From: Bacteroidota bacterium
GTDB taxonomy: Bacteria > Bacteroidota > Bacteroidia > Chitinophagales > Chitinophagaceae
Assembly: GCA_013286315.1 (NCBI GenBank)
Contig: JABDFX010000010.1
Location: 1-63,332 of the forward strand
Length of the DNA stretch: 63,332 nucleotides
Reading direction: 5' to 3'
Positions within the stretch are counted from its first letter, which is position 1; each line of letters opens with the position of its first letter. The translations under genes were made by a program, and so were the position numbers. Of the stretch, positions 35,671 through 59,616 are shown in pieces. Under the pieces are notes generated by a model, which did no database searches, was not told the origin of the DNA, and worked only from the letters and a program-made list of their open reading frames with translations.

Positions 35671-38229
35671 ATGTTTGGGAAACCCCAACGTACTAATGTG
35701 CCACGAGTCTCGCTTCTGATTTTTAGCCTCTTTACAGGTTTATTCTCAACTGCCGGCAATCTGATCAATATTAAACCGGAACCTTCCTGGATTTTGTCCA
35801 ATATAGCGGACCTGACACGAAACCCCGGTGCAAAAAATATTAGCGGCGGTTATTATTATGATCTGACGGACCGTCAGATAAATCTTGAAAAACAGACCGT
35901 TTATGTGCATATCATCCGGCATATTGTAAATGAATCCGGAGTTCAGGAAGCATCGGAAGTGTCCGCATCTTTTTCACCCCAATTTCAACAAATCATTTTC
36001 CATAAAGTGATTGTTATCAGAAATGGCCATTCCGTTAACCAGCTGATCCCCTCCTCTATCAAAACGGCGGATGAAGAATCCGAGGCTCCCAGTTATTTAT
36101 ATAATGGAACAAGGAGGGCTTATATTATATTGAAAAATATTGAGAAAGGAGATCAGATTGATATCTCTTATTCCATAATCGGTTTCAATCCTGTATTCAA
36201 TGGCCTGTATTCCGGCGAGACTTATTTCTACAACAACACAGCGATTTCAAATTATTTCCTAAGTTATATAGCAGCTGCTGACAAAAAATTAAATTTCAAA
36301 TTGTTCAATGGCGCGATTGCACCCACCCAACAATCTACAGGGTCGCAAATCATTTATCAATGGAAAAATCCTCCTATGGAGAATTCTCCTTCCAGTTCCG
36401 ATATTCCCAGCTGGTACACGAACAGCCCCTACGTTACCGTGAGCGAGTTCAGGGATTGGAAACAGGTGAATGACTGGGGACTTTCGCTCTTTAAAAACTA
36501 TCAGTACAAACTACCTGAAAAACTTTTAGAAAAAATATCCGCATGGAAAAAAGCTTCTGCCGGTGATCGGGATATGTTTGCCAATCTTGCTCTTCGTTAT
36601 GTACAGAACCAGATCCGCTATCTGGGAATTGAAATCGGATCCAATTCCCATCAGCCGCATGCACCTGACATGGTATTTGAACAGGGATTTGGCGACTGCA
36701 AGGACAAGGCTCTTCTGCTGGCTGTTATTCTAAAACACGAAAATATAGACGCTTACGTTGCTTTTACTAATACGCAGGAAAAAGAAAATCTCTCTCAGGT
36801 CGCCCCTTCTGCGCTCGCATTTGATCACGCCATTGTTGCATTGAGGCGGGGAAATAATTTTATTTTTATTGATCCCACCGAGTCATTACAACGTGGCGAA
36901 CTGATTAATAATTATATACCGGCCTATGGTTGGGCGCTTGTAATACAGCCCGGCGGCAACAACCTCTCCCAGGTGGAATCTGGTTATCTAAACCATACAT
37001 TTGCCGTTGAAGACCTGACAGTTTCCCTGAATGACACGAGTTTTCTGCGGGTAACGACAGAATATAAAGGTGGAGCAGCAGATGGCATGCGTAATAATCT
37101 TTCAGAATCCAGCCCGAAGGAAATGCAGGAAAACTACCTTAATTATTACAGTAAATTATTTGAAGGTATAGAACCAGATTCGGCCATATCCACTGAGGAC
37201 GATAGTCTGAAAAATGCAATCAAAATTCTGGAATCATATAAGATTCCTAAAATATGGGAAAAAAATAAGGACGGGAAAAAAGAGATTTTCACGTATGCAA
37301 AATTAATATCTTCGAAGTTTCCAGATCCAATCGATCACAAAGCAAAAGATCCAATAGCGCTGGATTTTCCCTGTACACTGGAATACACACTACGACTTAC
37401 CATGCCAGAAGACTGGTCAGTAAATATGGAAGAAGTTCATATCAAAAATGCTTCCTTTCAGTTCGATTTTACTCCTTCAGGATATGCCAACCATCTGCTG
37501 TTTAAATACTACTTTAAATCCTTCAGGGATTATATACCGGCGGAGGACTTTGTTCAGTATAAAGCTGACTATAAAGAAATTTCGGGTTCGCTGAGCTTGT
37601 CGTTTACCAGTGGTGATTTTACGGCGCCTCCATCAAAACAAAAAAATTTCGAACCCGGGGGAAATACAAACTGGATTACCTTATGGATTAGTTTATTTGC
37701 TGGCCTGCTTTTAACCATGCTCTTTAATTTCCTGAACAGAAGATCTCTTGCCGAAGAAGAATTCGCTGAACAGGCCTTACCCATACGGGGAGCCGTTATA
37801 CTTCTGGCTATTACGCTGGGCATCAGGTTCTTCTATCAGGGCTATATTTTCATGGACCAGCACTATTTTCAGCGTGGTGTTTGGAATCAGCTGGAAGTTG
37901 CTGGCGGGGCCGGTTTGCAATCGTTGTTGGTTACGGAAATGTGCGTTGCCATATTCTCGATGGCGGGGTCTCTTGCACTTTTATACTGGTTCTTTAAAAA
38001 AAGGGATATTTTCCCCTATATGTTTATCCGCTTTGTTGTTGTTTGCCTGGTTGCGCAGTTTTTACTTTTGGTTGTTTACCACACCATCAAAGTCTCAATT
38101 GATTTAACACCAGTGAAGAGCGATGCTGCCACGCAACTCATGAGGTCGCTGGTGTATGCCGGGATCTGGATCAGCTTTATTGTAAAATCGGAAAATGTAA
38201 AAAGAATTTTTGTTTGTCCGTACAATTGA
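35671..38229 (+). CDS. DUF3857 / transglutaminase protein with C-terminal membrane domain
   Basis: This is an 852-aa protein with an N-terminal signal or anchor (LLIFSLFTGLFSTAGN). DUF3857 (about 60-240) includes EKQTVYVHIIRHIVNESGVQ. The transglutaminase core has an intact triad: Cys 343 in FGDCKDKALLLA, His 386 in AFDHAIVAL and Asp 401 in FIDPTE. A beta-rich domain follows, then about four membrane helices from residue 670 to the end. It probably faces the periplasm from the inner membrane and could cleave or cross-link protein amides; the true reaction is unknown. Unlike its 29469 paralogue it keeps catalytic residues. Confidence 0.83.
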   Translation: MFGKPQRTNVPRVSLLIFSLFTGLFSTAGNLINIKPEPSWILSNIADLTRNPGAKNISGGYYYDLTDRQINLEKQTVYVHIIRHIVNESGVQEASEVSASFSPQFQQIIFHKVIVIRNGHSVNQLIPSSIKTADEESEAPSYLYNGTRRAYIILKNIEKGDQIDISYSIIGFNPVFNGLYSGETYFYNNTAISNYFLSYIAAADKKLNFKLFNGAIAPTQQSTGSQIIYQWKNPPMENSPSSSDIPSWYTNSPYVTVSEFRDWKQVNDWGLSLFKNYQYKLPEKLLEKISAWKKASAGDRDMFANLALRYVQNQIRYLGIEIGSNSHQPHAPDMVFEQGFGDCKDKALLLAVILKHENIDAYVAFTNTQEKENLSQVAPSALAFDHAIVALRRGNNFIFIDPTESLQRGELINNYIPAYGWALVIQPGGNNLSQVESGYLNHTFAVEDLTVSLNDTSFLRVTTEYKGGAADGMRNNLSESSPKEMQENYLNYYSKLFEGIEPDSAISTEDDSLKNAIKILESYKIPKIWEKNKDGKKEIFTYAKLISSKFPDPIDHKAKDPIALDFPCTLEYTLRLTMPEDWSVNMEEVHIKNASFQFDFTPSGYANHLLFKYYFKSFRDYIPAEDFVQYKADYKEISGSLSLSFTSGDFTAPPSKQKNFEPGGNTNWITLWISLFAGLLLTMLFNFLNRRSLAEEEFAEQALPIRGAVILLAITLGIRFFYQGYIFMDQHYFQRGVWNQLEVAGGAGLQSLLVTEMCVAIFSMAGSLALLYWFFKKRDIFPYMFIRFVVVCLVAQFLLLVVYHTIKVSIDLTPVKSDAATQLMRSLVYAGIWISFIVKSENVKRIFVCPYN

Positions 38230-38483
38230 AACGAACTCTAAATCCCAAAACCTGAACCCTACTATCAAAATATTGTTCATTCTAATTTTGATTTCGTTCG
38301 GAAACGATCTCAAGGCTCAAGACGATCATGGCAAACATCATGATTGCTAAAACGTTCGTTTTATTGAAAAAGCCATTCATCATCCAATATACCTTCAGAT
38401 GGTTAACCCAATCATTATTAACAGATTAATTCCGGCATTAATACAAGCGGCAGGCCCACGGGTTGAGCAAAAAGCGTTCAGCG

Positions 38484-38587
38484 TTCTTACCAGGTTGCTG
38501 CTGGGTTGCTGCTGGCTTGCTGTTTTCCCCAGAAAACATCGGGAAAACAGCAACAAAGCAGCAAGCCAATAAGAATTTGGTAAGAAT
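38484..38587. repeat. Palindromic cluster A: inverted 11-nt units
   Basis: A 44-base imperfect inverted repeat (38486-38529 and 38541-38584) surrounds an 11-base loop. The left arm contains the consecutive 11-mers GTTGCTGCTGG (38494-38504), GTTGCTGCTGG (38505-38515) and CTTGCTGTTTT (38516-38526). The right arm, read on the other strand, contains GTTGCTGTTTT (38544-38554) and CTTGCTGCTTT (38555-38565). The outer ends close with TTCTTACC / GGTAAGAA. The stop codon of the small ORF 38487-38753 lies in the left end. Confidence 0.8.
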
Positions 38588-38753
38588 CTGATACCATGTC
38601 AACAGGGTTACCGGCATCGGAGATGATTGGCTGCGAAGAATATATATTCTCAATTGTCCCCTGCAAGCTGACAGACACCGGCCCCCTGACGCCGGAAACC
38701 TTCAGTTGACTCCATAAATATGAAATGAATTCCAGGTCGTCTTTCGCAGTCAT
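38487..38753 (-). CDS. Small ORF bounded by 11-nt repeat clusters
   Basis: This 88-codon ORF encodes MTAKDDLEFISYLWSQLK, then GPVSVSLQGTIENIY and PIISDAGNPVDMVSDSYQIL, with a hydrophobic, Cys-rich stretch (LIGLLLCCCF) before a tail read through the repeat cluster. I recognise no characterised family. Its ATG lies inside repeat cluster B and its stop inside cluster A, so the repeats frame the gene exactly. The first 65 residues look like a normal compact protein; the last 20 are encoded by 11-nt units. Confidence 0.5.
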   Translation of the reverse strand: MTAKDDLEFISYLWSQLKVSGVRGPVSVSLQGTIENIYSSQPIISDAGNPVDMVSDSYQILIGLLLCCCFPDVFWGKQQASSNPAATW

Positions 38754-38772
38754 TCCGTAGGCTACGAAAGAT
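38739..38772. repeat. Palindromic cluster B-left (11-nt units, holds an ATG)
   Basis: This 32-base arm pairs with 39020-39051 at 28 of 32 positions in inverted orientation. Inside it are 11-mers read on the minus strand, CTACGGAATGA and CTGCGAAAGAC, facing CTACGAAAGAT on the plus strand around a central G. The start codon of the ORF 38487-38753 is the ATG of CTACGGAATGA. Confidence 0.7.
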
Positions 38773-38846
38773 TTTTTATAAGGCGAATTCGATGTTTTGG
38801 ACCAGATGGAATTTGGAAGCAGATTACATGCAGAGCAGGTTTTTAC

Positions 38847-38921
38847 TAGAGTTCTTTTAGAGTTCCCTTAGAAATCTTCGGAAATTCAAGGAGAACTCTA
38901 AAAGAACTCTAAGAGAACTCT
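38847..38921. repeat. Palindromic cluster C: inverted 11-nt units
   Basis: A perfect 19-base inverted repeat (38847-38865 and 38893-38911) is built of 11-mers. On the left are AGAGTTCTTTT (38848-38858) and AGAGTTCCCTT (38859-38869). On the right are AGGAGAACTCT (38889-38899), AAAAGAACTCT (38900-38910) and AAGAGAACTCT (38911-38921). A 27-base loop separates the arms. There is no open reading frame of note across it, and neither side has a U-tract, so it is not a simple terminator. Confidence 0.8.
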
Positions 38922-39016
38922 ACATGTTTTTCAGACTAAATCCCGAATACATCCGGAATACTTGTCCTTTTCATCTGGAGGGAAAGCATATTTCAGACTC
39001 CATTTTTTCCGAAATA

Positions 39017-39051
39017 ATTCTTTCGTAGCCTACGAAATGACTACGAAAAAT
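39017..39051. repeat. Palindromic cluster B-right (11-nt units)
   Basis: A perfect palindrome TTTCGTAG-C-CTACGAAA (39021-39037) is extended by the tandem 11-mers CTACGAAATGA (39030-39040) and CTACGAAAAAT (39041-39051). It is the inverted partner of 38739-38770, giving a 313-base segment flanked by near-identical 32-base arms. An ATG at the same relative place starts only a 15-codon plus-strand ORF. Confidence 0.75.
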
Positions 39052-39055
39052 CCAT

Positions 39056-39256
39056 TTACCGGAGTTGCATATTTGCACTTGTAACCTCTTTGCTATAATT
39101 TGAAAAAATATTTATGGCTTCATATAGTTCAAATCCAATCCCCTTGGCAAGTACAGCCCAAAGTCCAACTGCATATAGGATATAAGGATGTGGCGGAATT
39201 TCAAAATCCAGTGTATTATTGTCATAGATAACTGTCCTTCCAATGTAGTTTACTCT
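39056..39256 (-). pseudogene. Headless gene fragment next to ssrA
   Basis: A 66-codon minus-strand stretch opens after a TAG (39257-39259) with no start codon. It encodes VNYIGRTVIYDNNTLDFEIP, then PHPYILYAVGLWAVLAKGIG and FELYEAINIFSNYSKEV, ending at a TAA. Composition and phrasing look like real protein, perhaps the C-terminus of a larger gene lost on the ssrA side. I cannot assign a family. Confidence 0.5.
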
Positions 39257-39276
39257 CTAGCCGATCTAGGAAATAA

Positions 39277-39305
39277 AAATGCCTCACAAATTATATGAGG
39301 CATTT
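39277..39305 (-). terminator. Hairpin downstream of ssrA
   Basis: A 10-base stem AAATGCCTCA / TGAGGCATTT has a 9-base loop. Read on the minus strand it is followed by TTTTTATTT, as for an intrinsic terminator of ssrA transcription. Confidence 0.75.
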
Positions 39306-39320
39306 CTTAGTTTTTGCAAG

Positions 39321-39346
39321 CCCTCCTTCGCTAAAGCTACGGAGGG
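39321..39346. repeat. Short palindrome between ssrA and its terminator
   Basis: CCCTCC at 39321-39326 pairs with GGAGGG at 39341-39346 around a 14-base centre. It lies 6 bases past the tmRNA acceptor stem. Palindromes of this form (CCCTCC...CTAAAGCTAC...GGAGGG) recur between genes in many bacteria; here it may help 3' processing or be a mobile palindromic element. Confidence 0.45.
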
Positions 39347-39352
39347 CGAGGG

Positions 39353-39720
39353 TGGAGGTGAGGAGAATCGAACTCCTGTCCAAACATATTCTTCAAAAGC
39401 TTTCTACATGTTTATTTGCTGATTGATTGTCGGGGAAGAAACGGACAGCAACAAACCAATCCTTCCCTTAGCTGAATCGTCTTAGGTTCAGATCACAGCC
39501 TTTCTGAACAGCGTCCTCTTTTGTTTTTAGTCGGCGGTGCAGCATGGTAACAGGCGAACCTGCCACACGGCCCGAATGACTACTTAATCACTGATTAGGC
39601 AGCCATGGCATACTGTGTATTGCCATTTGAGATTTGAATATTCAGATTAACGTGCTAATTATCCAACGCACGACATGCTTATACTTTCAAAGATCTACGC
39701 TGTCAAAACCAGGCACCCCC
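39353..39720 (-). ncRNA. ssrA: Transfer-messenger RNA (tmRNA)
   Basis: tmRNA rescues stalled ribosomes and tags the product for proteolysis. The 5' end on the minus strand reads GGGGGTGCCTGGTTTTGACA, and its first seven bases pair with CACCTCC at the 3' end (39354-39360). The 3' part contains the T-arm loop GTTCGATTC. The tag reading frame lies at about 39600-39630 and encodes GNTQYAMAA followed by TAA, a hydrophobic -AMAA end as expected for ClpXP-type recognition. The length of about 368 is normal. CCA is not fully encoded, since the discriminator A is followed by CCC. Confidence 0.93.
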
Positions 39721-59524: not shown

Positions 59525-59616
59525 TTTTAACAAATCCATTGAAATATCATGCCAGGGGAAACGTTTTATTAACCGCAGCTTAACCTGCAGGTAACTGAAT
59601 TGCAAAATCCCATTTT

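Follow-up and report, generated by a model that had tools for sequence, protein, structure and literature searches.

Helix-phased repeat arrays beside a Bacteroidota tmRNA gene as putative operators related to DUF6266 promoter regions

The window, i.e., the whole 63,332-nt stretch of contig C10 (JABDFX010000010.1) that was analyzed, derives from a 3.3 Mb genome assembly that is 59% complete. A DUF3857/DUF2569 gene ends at position 38229, and approximately 1.1 kb, in which the listed ORFs comprise at most 88 amino acids, then separates this gene end from a tmRNA gene. The latter was the sole sequence of the window that reached the Rfam gathering score; the repeat clusters in the intergenic part matched no described RNA family in this search. 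The following features were assigned:

38484..38586, no strand: cluster A, mirrored 11-nt array with units GGTTGCTGCTG ...; putative C-type centre of a second, truncated unit
38595..38660 (66 nt), plus strand: putative leader relic directly after A; in relatives located downstream of B half-sites and a -7-like box
38713..38781, minus strand: B-left with outward -7-like box (CATATTTATG); half-sites TCGTAG / CTACGG / CTGCGA, 21 nt, box
38847..38922, no strand: C, mirrored array of 11-nt units AGAGTTCTTTT / AACTCTAAAAG
39009..39077, plus strand: B-right with outward -7-like box (CATATTTGCA, 39068-39077); half-sites TCGTAG / CTACGA / CTACGA, 21 nt, box
39350..39720, minus strand: tmRNA gene, a neighbour outside the unit

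The far side of the tmRNA gene varies among species of the genus (window positions 38230-39350; loci L251, L252, L253, L258, and L261), and in a comparison of 26 loci RseP mostly adjoins tmRNA; the variable far side resembles an integration hot spot. Among these tmRNA loci, the intergenic part of the window matched its own locus alone, which left no empty site to align.

A preliminary description of this DNA had reported four clusters, each built from gapless 11-mer units mirrored around a short centre. This held for A and C, which are both mirrored and far from random. In cluster A, two 46-nt arms form an inverted repeat (38484-38529/38541-38586, 78% complementary); in cluster C, the arms measure 27-31 nt and lie inside 38847-38922 (84-89% complementary). 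In RNA folding against 200 dinucleotide shuffles, z values of -8.5 for A, -6.6 for C, and -4.6 for B-right were obtained, each better than 200/200 shuffles. Tandem Repeats Finder assigned period 11 at 38493, 38544, 38847, 38892, and 38940, and elsewhere in the 63 kb returned a single row at 59569; for C, 11 was the top period with a score of 17.5. The 11-base period, described as constant over clusters of differing unit, was thereby borne out.

The B clusters, in contrast, are not self-mirrored gapless arrays. Each B consists instead of three half-sites, one inverted, followed by a 1-nt centre, a second half-site, and a direct copy 11 nt on (TTTCGTAG-C-CTACGA-NNNNN-CTACGA); a box stands 21 nt outward of the third half-site and is likened by us to the -7 box TAnnTTTG of Bacteroidota promoters. 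B-left and B-right are mutually inverted 36-nt copies (89%) separated by 235 nt; as the mirror thus runs between the two B, B-C-B forms one symmetrical unit. Cluster A showed 87% identity over 91 nt with the central array of a related unit on contig C22 of genome G000, and its right arm has drifted away from the unit of the left arm. The leader relic lies directly behind A and aligned locally with loci L076, L057, and L003 at scores of 48, 40, and 30 (maxima of 200 shuffles each: 15, 13, and 13), and accordingly the right B of A appears to be missing. Judged from this comparison with relatives, the four clusters are two units: B-C-B at 38713-39077, and a truncated A unit, the right B and box of which are gone.

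A BLAST search of 19 genomes with the region (E up to 0.001) gave matches in its own genome and in genome G007 only. The exact B motif was found in only two stretches of the wider genome_contigs collection, both from G007, and in none of the viral contigs; with two mismatches allowed, it was found in 195 genomes of the family in the window's own genome only. A covariance model of B plus box, built from 12 rows, was run on 33 congeneric genomes, own genome included, with E up to 0.5. It yielded 27 matches in 5 of the 33 genomes. Besides the 12 training rows, 15 matches were new, and 12 of these cover all 69 nt. B-left and B-right, themselves training rows, scored 66.7 and 68.9 bits, respectively. 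Three matches short of 69 nt were left out, giving an aligned set of 24 rows.

Ten pairs accounted for 20 of the 27 matches, and all ten were outward-facing, including 5/5 among the pairs outside the training set, with inner distances of 126-467 nt. The other seven matches were single, two of them at contig starts. Between the paired B, period 11 was the best of periods 5-25 in nine of ten cases (four of five new pairs; the exception was L089), and an inverted repeat with a score of 9 or more was present in eight of ten. At a distance of 21 nt from half-site 3, the box CATATTTG was exact in 15 of the 24 rows, carried one or two changes in eight, and was unrecognizable in one (L058).

The half-sites themselves vary between loci. 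In the 24 rows, 92.2% of the cells of half-sites 1 and 3 were standard pairs and six of eight pairs were changed on both sides, values to be read with the model in mind, which was supplied with the 1-3 pairing and favours such copies among the new rows. The covariation score for half-sites 1 and 3 was 0.375 (≤0.172 when slid), that for half-sites 1 and 2 was 0.339 (≤0.210) with 71.4% paired; many of the 24 rows are related, so these counts do not represent independent events. Half-sites 2 and 3 agreed in 84% of letters at offset 11 and in ≤33% at the other offsets between 5 and 17. From the covariation of half-sites 1-3 and 1-2 together with the agreement of 2 and 3, it appears that the half-site versions GTAG, ACAG, AGAG, and ACAA tend to change together within a locus; exceptions are L092, L093, L094, and L096, in each of which one half-site departs.

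Some related arrangements deviate from the paired layout. Beside a DUF6799 gene lies a lone B-type operator that is palindromic, comprises four half-sites, is flanked by divergent boxes, and has no C array (L056:3095-3190, G219:C65). Conversely, C-type mirrored 11-nt arrays without B are found in G007 at L053:958-1094, with differing inverted ends (ATTCCTTT...AAAGGAAT), and at L054:4086-4153.

Four of the ten pairs (loci L002, L055, L089, and L085) are flanked by two divergent genes, one of the family DUF6266 (PF19781) and one of DUF5675 (PF18925), and a fifth, L097, adjoins a 29-residue DUF5675 fragment. No recognizable DUF6266 or DUF5675 gene was present in the DNA examined around the pairs of the window, L003, L004, L076, and L094. 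In the window, remnants of either gene were not convincing; the best tblastn match, with a DUF5675 query, covered 17 residues (E = 0.015) at 12.4 kb, far from the unit. Among the 33 genomes, DUF6266 occurred in five, B units in five, and both in four (one-sided p = 6e-4). In L002:1740-2346, L055:4524-4937, and L089:1735-2148, DUF5675 overlaps a small ORF, membrane-type by eye, an arrangement resembling a lysis cassette. DUF6266 as a phage or plasmid gene was considered and rejected: with one query, tblastn gave zero matches in phage and plasmid collections, and there was no relative in viral contigs. For DUF5675, by contrast, relatives were found in 200 phage records and 33 viral contigs. DUF6266 itself was considered as a possible DNA reader: in a two-sequence AlphaFold prediction (mean pLDDT 51.9), the C-terminal part alone was fair and FN3-like, and this poor model showed no clear DNA-binding domain. 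At L055:685-1713, a RES domain protein is encoded behind an Xre/MbcA/ParS-type protein, resembling a toxin-antitoxin pair.

The association with DUF6266 was followed beyond the units with B. Genomes with a DUF6266 match numbered 5/33 in the genus, 23/147 in a family sample, and 26/395 in a phylum sample; the loci analyzed were the best ones returned out of all matches, and the same applies to 30 control loci. In 52 of 53 loci, 59 DUF6266-cluster ORFs were found, six of which were dropped (four partial, two repeated in another locus). Six of the 26 phylum loci had no usable ORF, and removal of four duplicates left 69 genes. An array was defined by a period self-match score of 12 or more within up to 600 nt upstream or downstream of the gene; three upstream stretches were shorter than 600 nt, and downstream two were empty and two short. 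Upstream of the 69 DUF6266 genes of these best loci, period 11 was found in 23, period 10 in nine, and either period in 28 cases. Downstream of the same genes (two stretches empty), the corresponding numbers were zero, one, and one (p = 4e-9 versus upstream). In 30 control regions upstream of OMP_b-brl_2 (PF13568) genes, neither period was found (0/30; p = 6e-6). Period 9 reached the threshold in 1/69 upstream and 1/69 downstream regions, and first-order Markov versions of 73 upstream regions (duplicates included) gave 0.05 arrays of either period per set. A total of 343 kb of DNA from the window and bulk sequence contained six period-11 arrays, two of them in the window's own clusters and one in the unit at G000:C22, whereas period-10 arrays were absent.

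Thus, period-11 arrays of varied unit do recur in relatives, as do period-10 arrays, as the preliminary description had proposed to check; most of them are unmirrored. Its further suggestion, that such arrays always border the same small ORF families, was right in the strong enrichment at DUF6266 and, sometimes, DUF5675 genes but failed in the word "always": five of the ten pairs in the genus, that of the window included, had no recognizable gene of either family, and 41 of the 69 DUF6266 upstream regions had no array at threshold 12. In L153-L158, the array was missing in 6/6.

The unit sequence differs between most loci while the period stays at 10 or 11. In L141, for example, roughly ten copies of GATACAGAAAC precede roughly eleven of GATCACAAGG, and L167 has six copies of CTAACTATATG. 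Units are shared within the locus pairs L112/L115, L120/L123, and L136/L149, and hence not every array-bearing locus is an independent case. Where the distance from array end to start codon exceeded 215 nt, the period was 11 in 17/17 rows (duplicates included, threshold 11). Among nearer arrays, counted in the same way, 11 rows had period 10 and 11 rows period 11; one more row ends at -41. Outside the genus, four period-10 arrays had a TAnnTTTG-like box downstream, at gaps of 29, 30, 35, and 48 nt; such a box was often not found downstream of the arrays there. An inverted repeat with a score of 12 or more covered the array in only 4 of 28 upstream regions (2 of 18 outside the genus; weaker ones escape this threshold), so mirroring is not general. 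By the inverted-repeat score, distal arrays with a divergent upstream ORF were mirrored in L107, L109, L139, and L149 and unmirrored in L130, L134, L141, and L159; those with a co-directional upstream ORF (L136, L160) were unmirrored. The correspondence among the inspected distal-array loci is not clean, and a divergent neighbour as the cause of mirroring is only suggestive.

Other short-period arrays were also seen. At L066:11942-11972 (G007:C1), away from the DUF6266 loci found, the 11-mer CCGCACTTGAG is repeated directly and without mismatch almost three times. In 260 kb of G007 scanned, seven mirrored period-7 arrays form a separate family with GTTGACG/GGATGGT-like units, several with loops like GCGAATTCGCACCTG (L060:18508-18591, L060:19305-19400, L061:5080-5165, L062:6570-6635, L063:19779-19859, L071:17860-17955, and L072:4237-4330).

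We consider it reasonably probable that the clusters are helix-phased putative operator arrays, acting at the DNA level in a bidirectional promoter region related to DUF6266 promoters, and read by a protein that recognizes direct repeats. From the observed architecture, spacing, half-site covariation, gene linkage, and association in the phylum samples, we infer that the boxes act as promoters and that transcription is regulated by a protein bound beside them. B would stand against each outward putative promoter, with half-sites one helical turn apart and 21 nt from the -7-like box, and the protein would line up on the direct repeats of B, one subunit per turn, along one face of the DNA. C would be a distal array using the same 11-nt grammar as B; it may be mirrored because two divergent promoters share it, so that both would see C in equal orientation. 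In relatives, one promoter would point toward DUF6266 and the other toward DUF5675. Neither unit of the window has a DUF6266 or DUF5675 gene and A lacks its right B and box; the most plausible reading of the window copies is therefore that of two decayed units, relics of a two-way promoter without its genes, as opposed to copies that never had genes.

The preliminary description had regarded a protein on one face of the DNA and RNA hairpins as equally possible. The 11-nt spacing of the half-sites and the 21-nt distance to the box in 23 of 24 copies shift this balance toward a protein. That the arrays act as long hairpins in a transcript, as a regulatory or processed RNA, is quite unlikely, although A and C fold far better than shuffled sequences and an A-form helix also has approximately 11 bp per turn. 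Transcripts from the two outward boxes would not include C, which is located upstream of both; the scarcity of inverted repeats over arrays (4/28 at a score of 12 or more, weaker ones being missed, and 2/18 outside the genus) and the absence from the window of anything but tmRNA at the Rfam gathering score also argue against RNA. A very unlikely alternative dispenses with a sequence-specific reader altogether: phased repeats would be kept for DNA bending, with copy slippage rewriting the unit. It would account for a period constant at 10 or 11 and a unit changed between most loci, but bending alone asks for neither the CTnnG core that half-sites within the genus mostly keep nor their fixed distance to the box.

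The unit could instead be a miniature transposable element with B as terminal inverted repeats carrying transposase sites and C as internal sequence. Its 36-nt ends are 89% alike, two copies with 90% identity over 348 bp occupy separate sites in G007, five of the ten paired units have no recognizable linked gene, and near the L002 unit, at a distance of about 1 kb, there is an integrase-core-like ORF, identified by visual inspection alone. However, no shared flank word above chance that would represent a target-site duplication was found in 10/10 units within the 40 nt beyond the box, and homology continues past the would-be ends and fades into the leader, with no sharp ends seen. Four copies lie between the same two divergent genes, and other genera carry arrays upstream of DUF6266 without B-like inverted ends. 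Taken together, we judge a mobile element unlikely.

For an operator array read by a protein, BldC/HTH_17-like proteins are the first candidate for the reader. HTH_17-like genes, the fold of which we take to be related to that of BldC, occur within about 6 kb of 9/40 DUF6266 loci versus 0/20 control loci (p = 0.018). The search model consisted of four proteins from beside DUF6266, three of which passed the Pfam HTH_17 cut-off, and two of the nine positive loci hold these seeds; without the seed loci, the numbers are 7/38 (p = 0.04). Loci with and without arrays did not differ significantly (6/20 versus 3/20, p = 0.23). This linkage is a lead, not proof.

A more tentative extension of the operator reading, which we regard as possible, is a new class of Bacteroidota promoters with hypervariable DUF6266 arrays (distal with period 11, proximal with period 10 or 11), the unit of which would be rewritten in concert with period and position kept; concerted change was judged by eye only, from 11 aligned proximal regions of the genus. 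If true, each locus would carry or recruit a reader of its own, perhaps a filament-forming protein similar to BldC, and reader and array would co-evolve quickly. The arrays tie DUF6266, an uncharacterized Bacteroidota family, to a recognizable control region and provide a natural set of putative operators with free sequence and preserved helical spacing. They open to testing the general question of how specificity changes jointly in a protein and a multi-copy DNA site, and indicate how relic promoters might be spotted once their genes are lost. In the one open library searched, hypervariable helix-phased arrays before many DUF6266 genes are not found in print; neither a paper naming DUF6266 nor a description of 11-bp Bacteroidetes repeats, Chitinophaga repeats, or concerted evolution of such sites was found there.

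Several known systems share individual traits with the arrays. Bidirectional promoters with shared operators have operator sites between two outward promoters, and here, too, sites lie between two outward promoter-like boxes; in contrast to such promoters, a separate B belongs to each box, and the centre is occupied by a mirrored array of many copies. Correia-type and other promoter-bearing MITEs are short intergenic elements with inverted ends and outward promoter-like boxes, present in several copies per genome. All these traits recur in the present unit, but target duplications and sharp ends were not found in it, and one gene pair is linked in 4/10 pairs.

BldC, a small MerR-like helix-turn-helix protein, offers a precedent: it lines up head to tail on direct repeats, the number of which varies, and thereby distorts the DNA, its subunits occupying 9-bp sites with one AT-rich consensus (PMC5859096). 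The arrays presented here likewise consist of direct repeats of variable number upstream of genes. They differ from these operators in their periods of 10 and 11 without a 9-bp AT-rich consensus, in a unit that varies between most loci, and in the mirroring of some arrays. The 11-bp direct repeats of the PHO boxes bound by PhoP-type response regulators in Streptomyces coelicolor (PMC9019756) offer another precedent, and the 10-11-bp direct repeats upstream of a gene that are typical of OmpR/PhoB-type sites are also seen in the arrays, here as putative regulator sites. PHO boxes have one conserved core per regulator, whereas here loci have units of their own and may possess a second, distal period-11 array.
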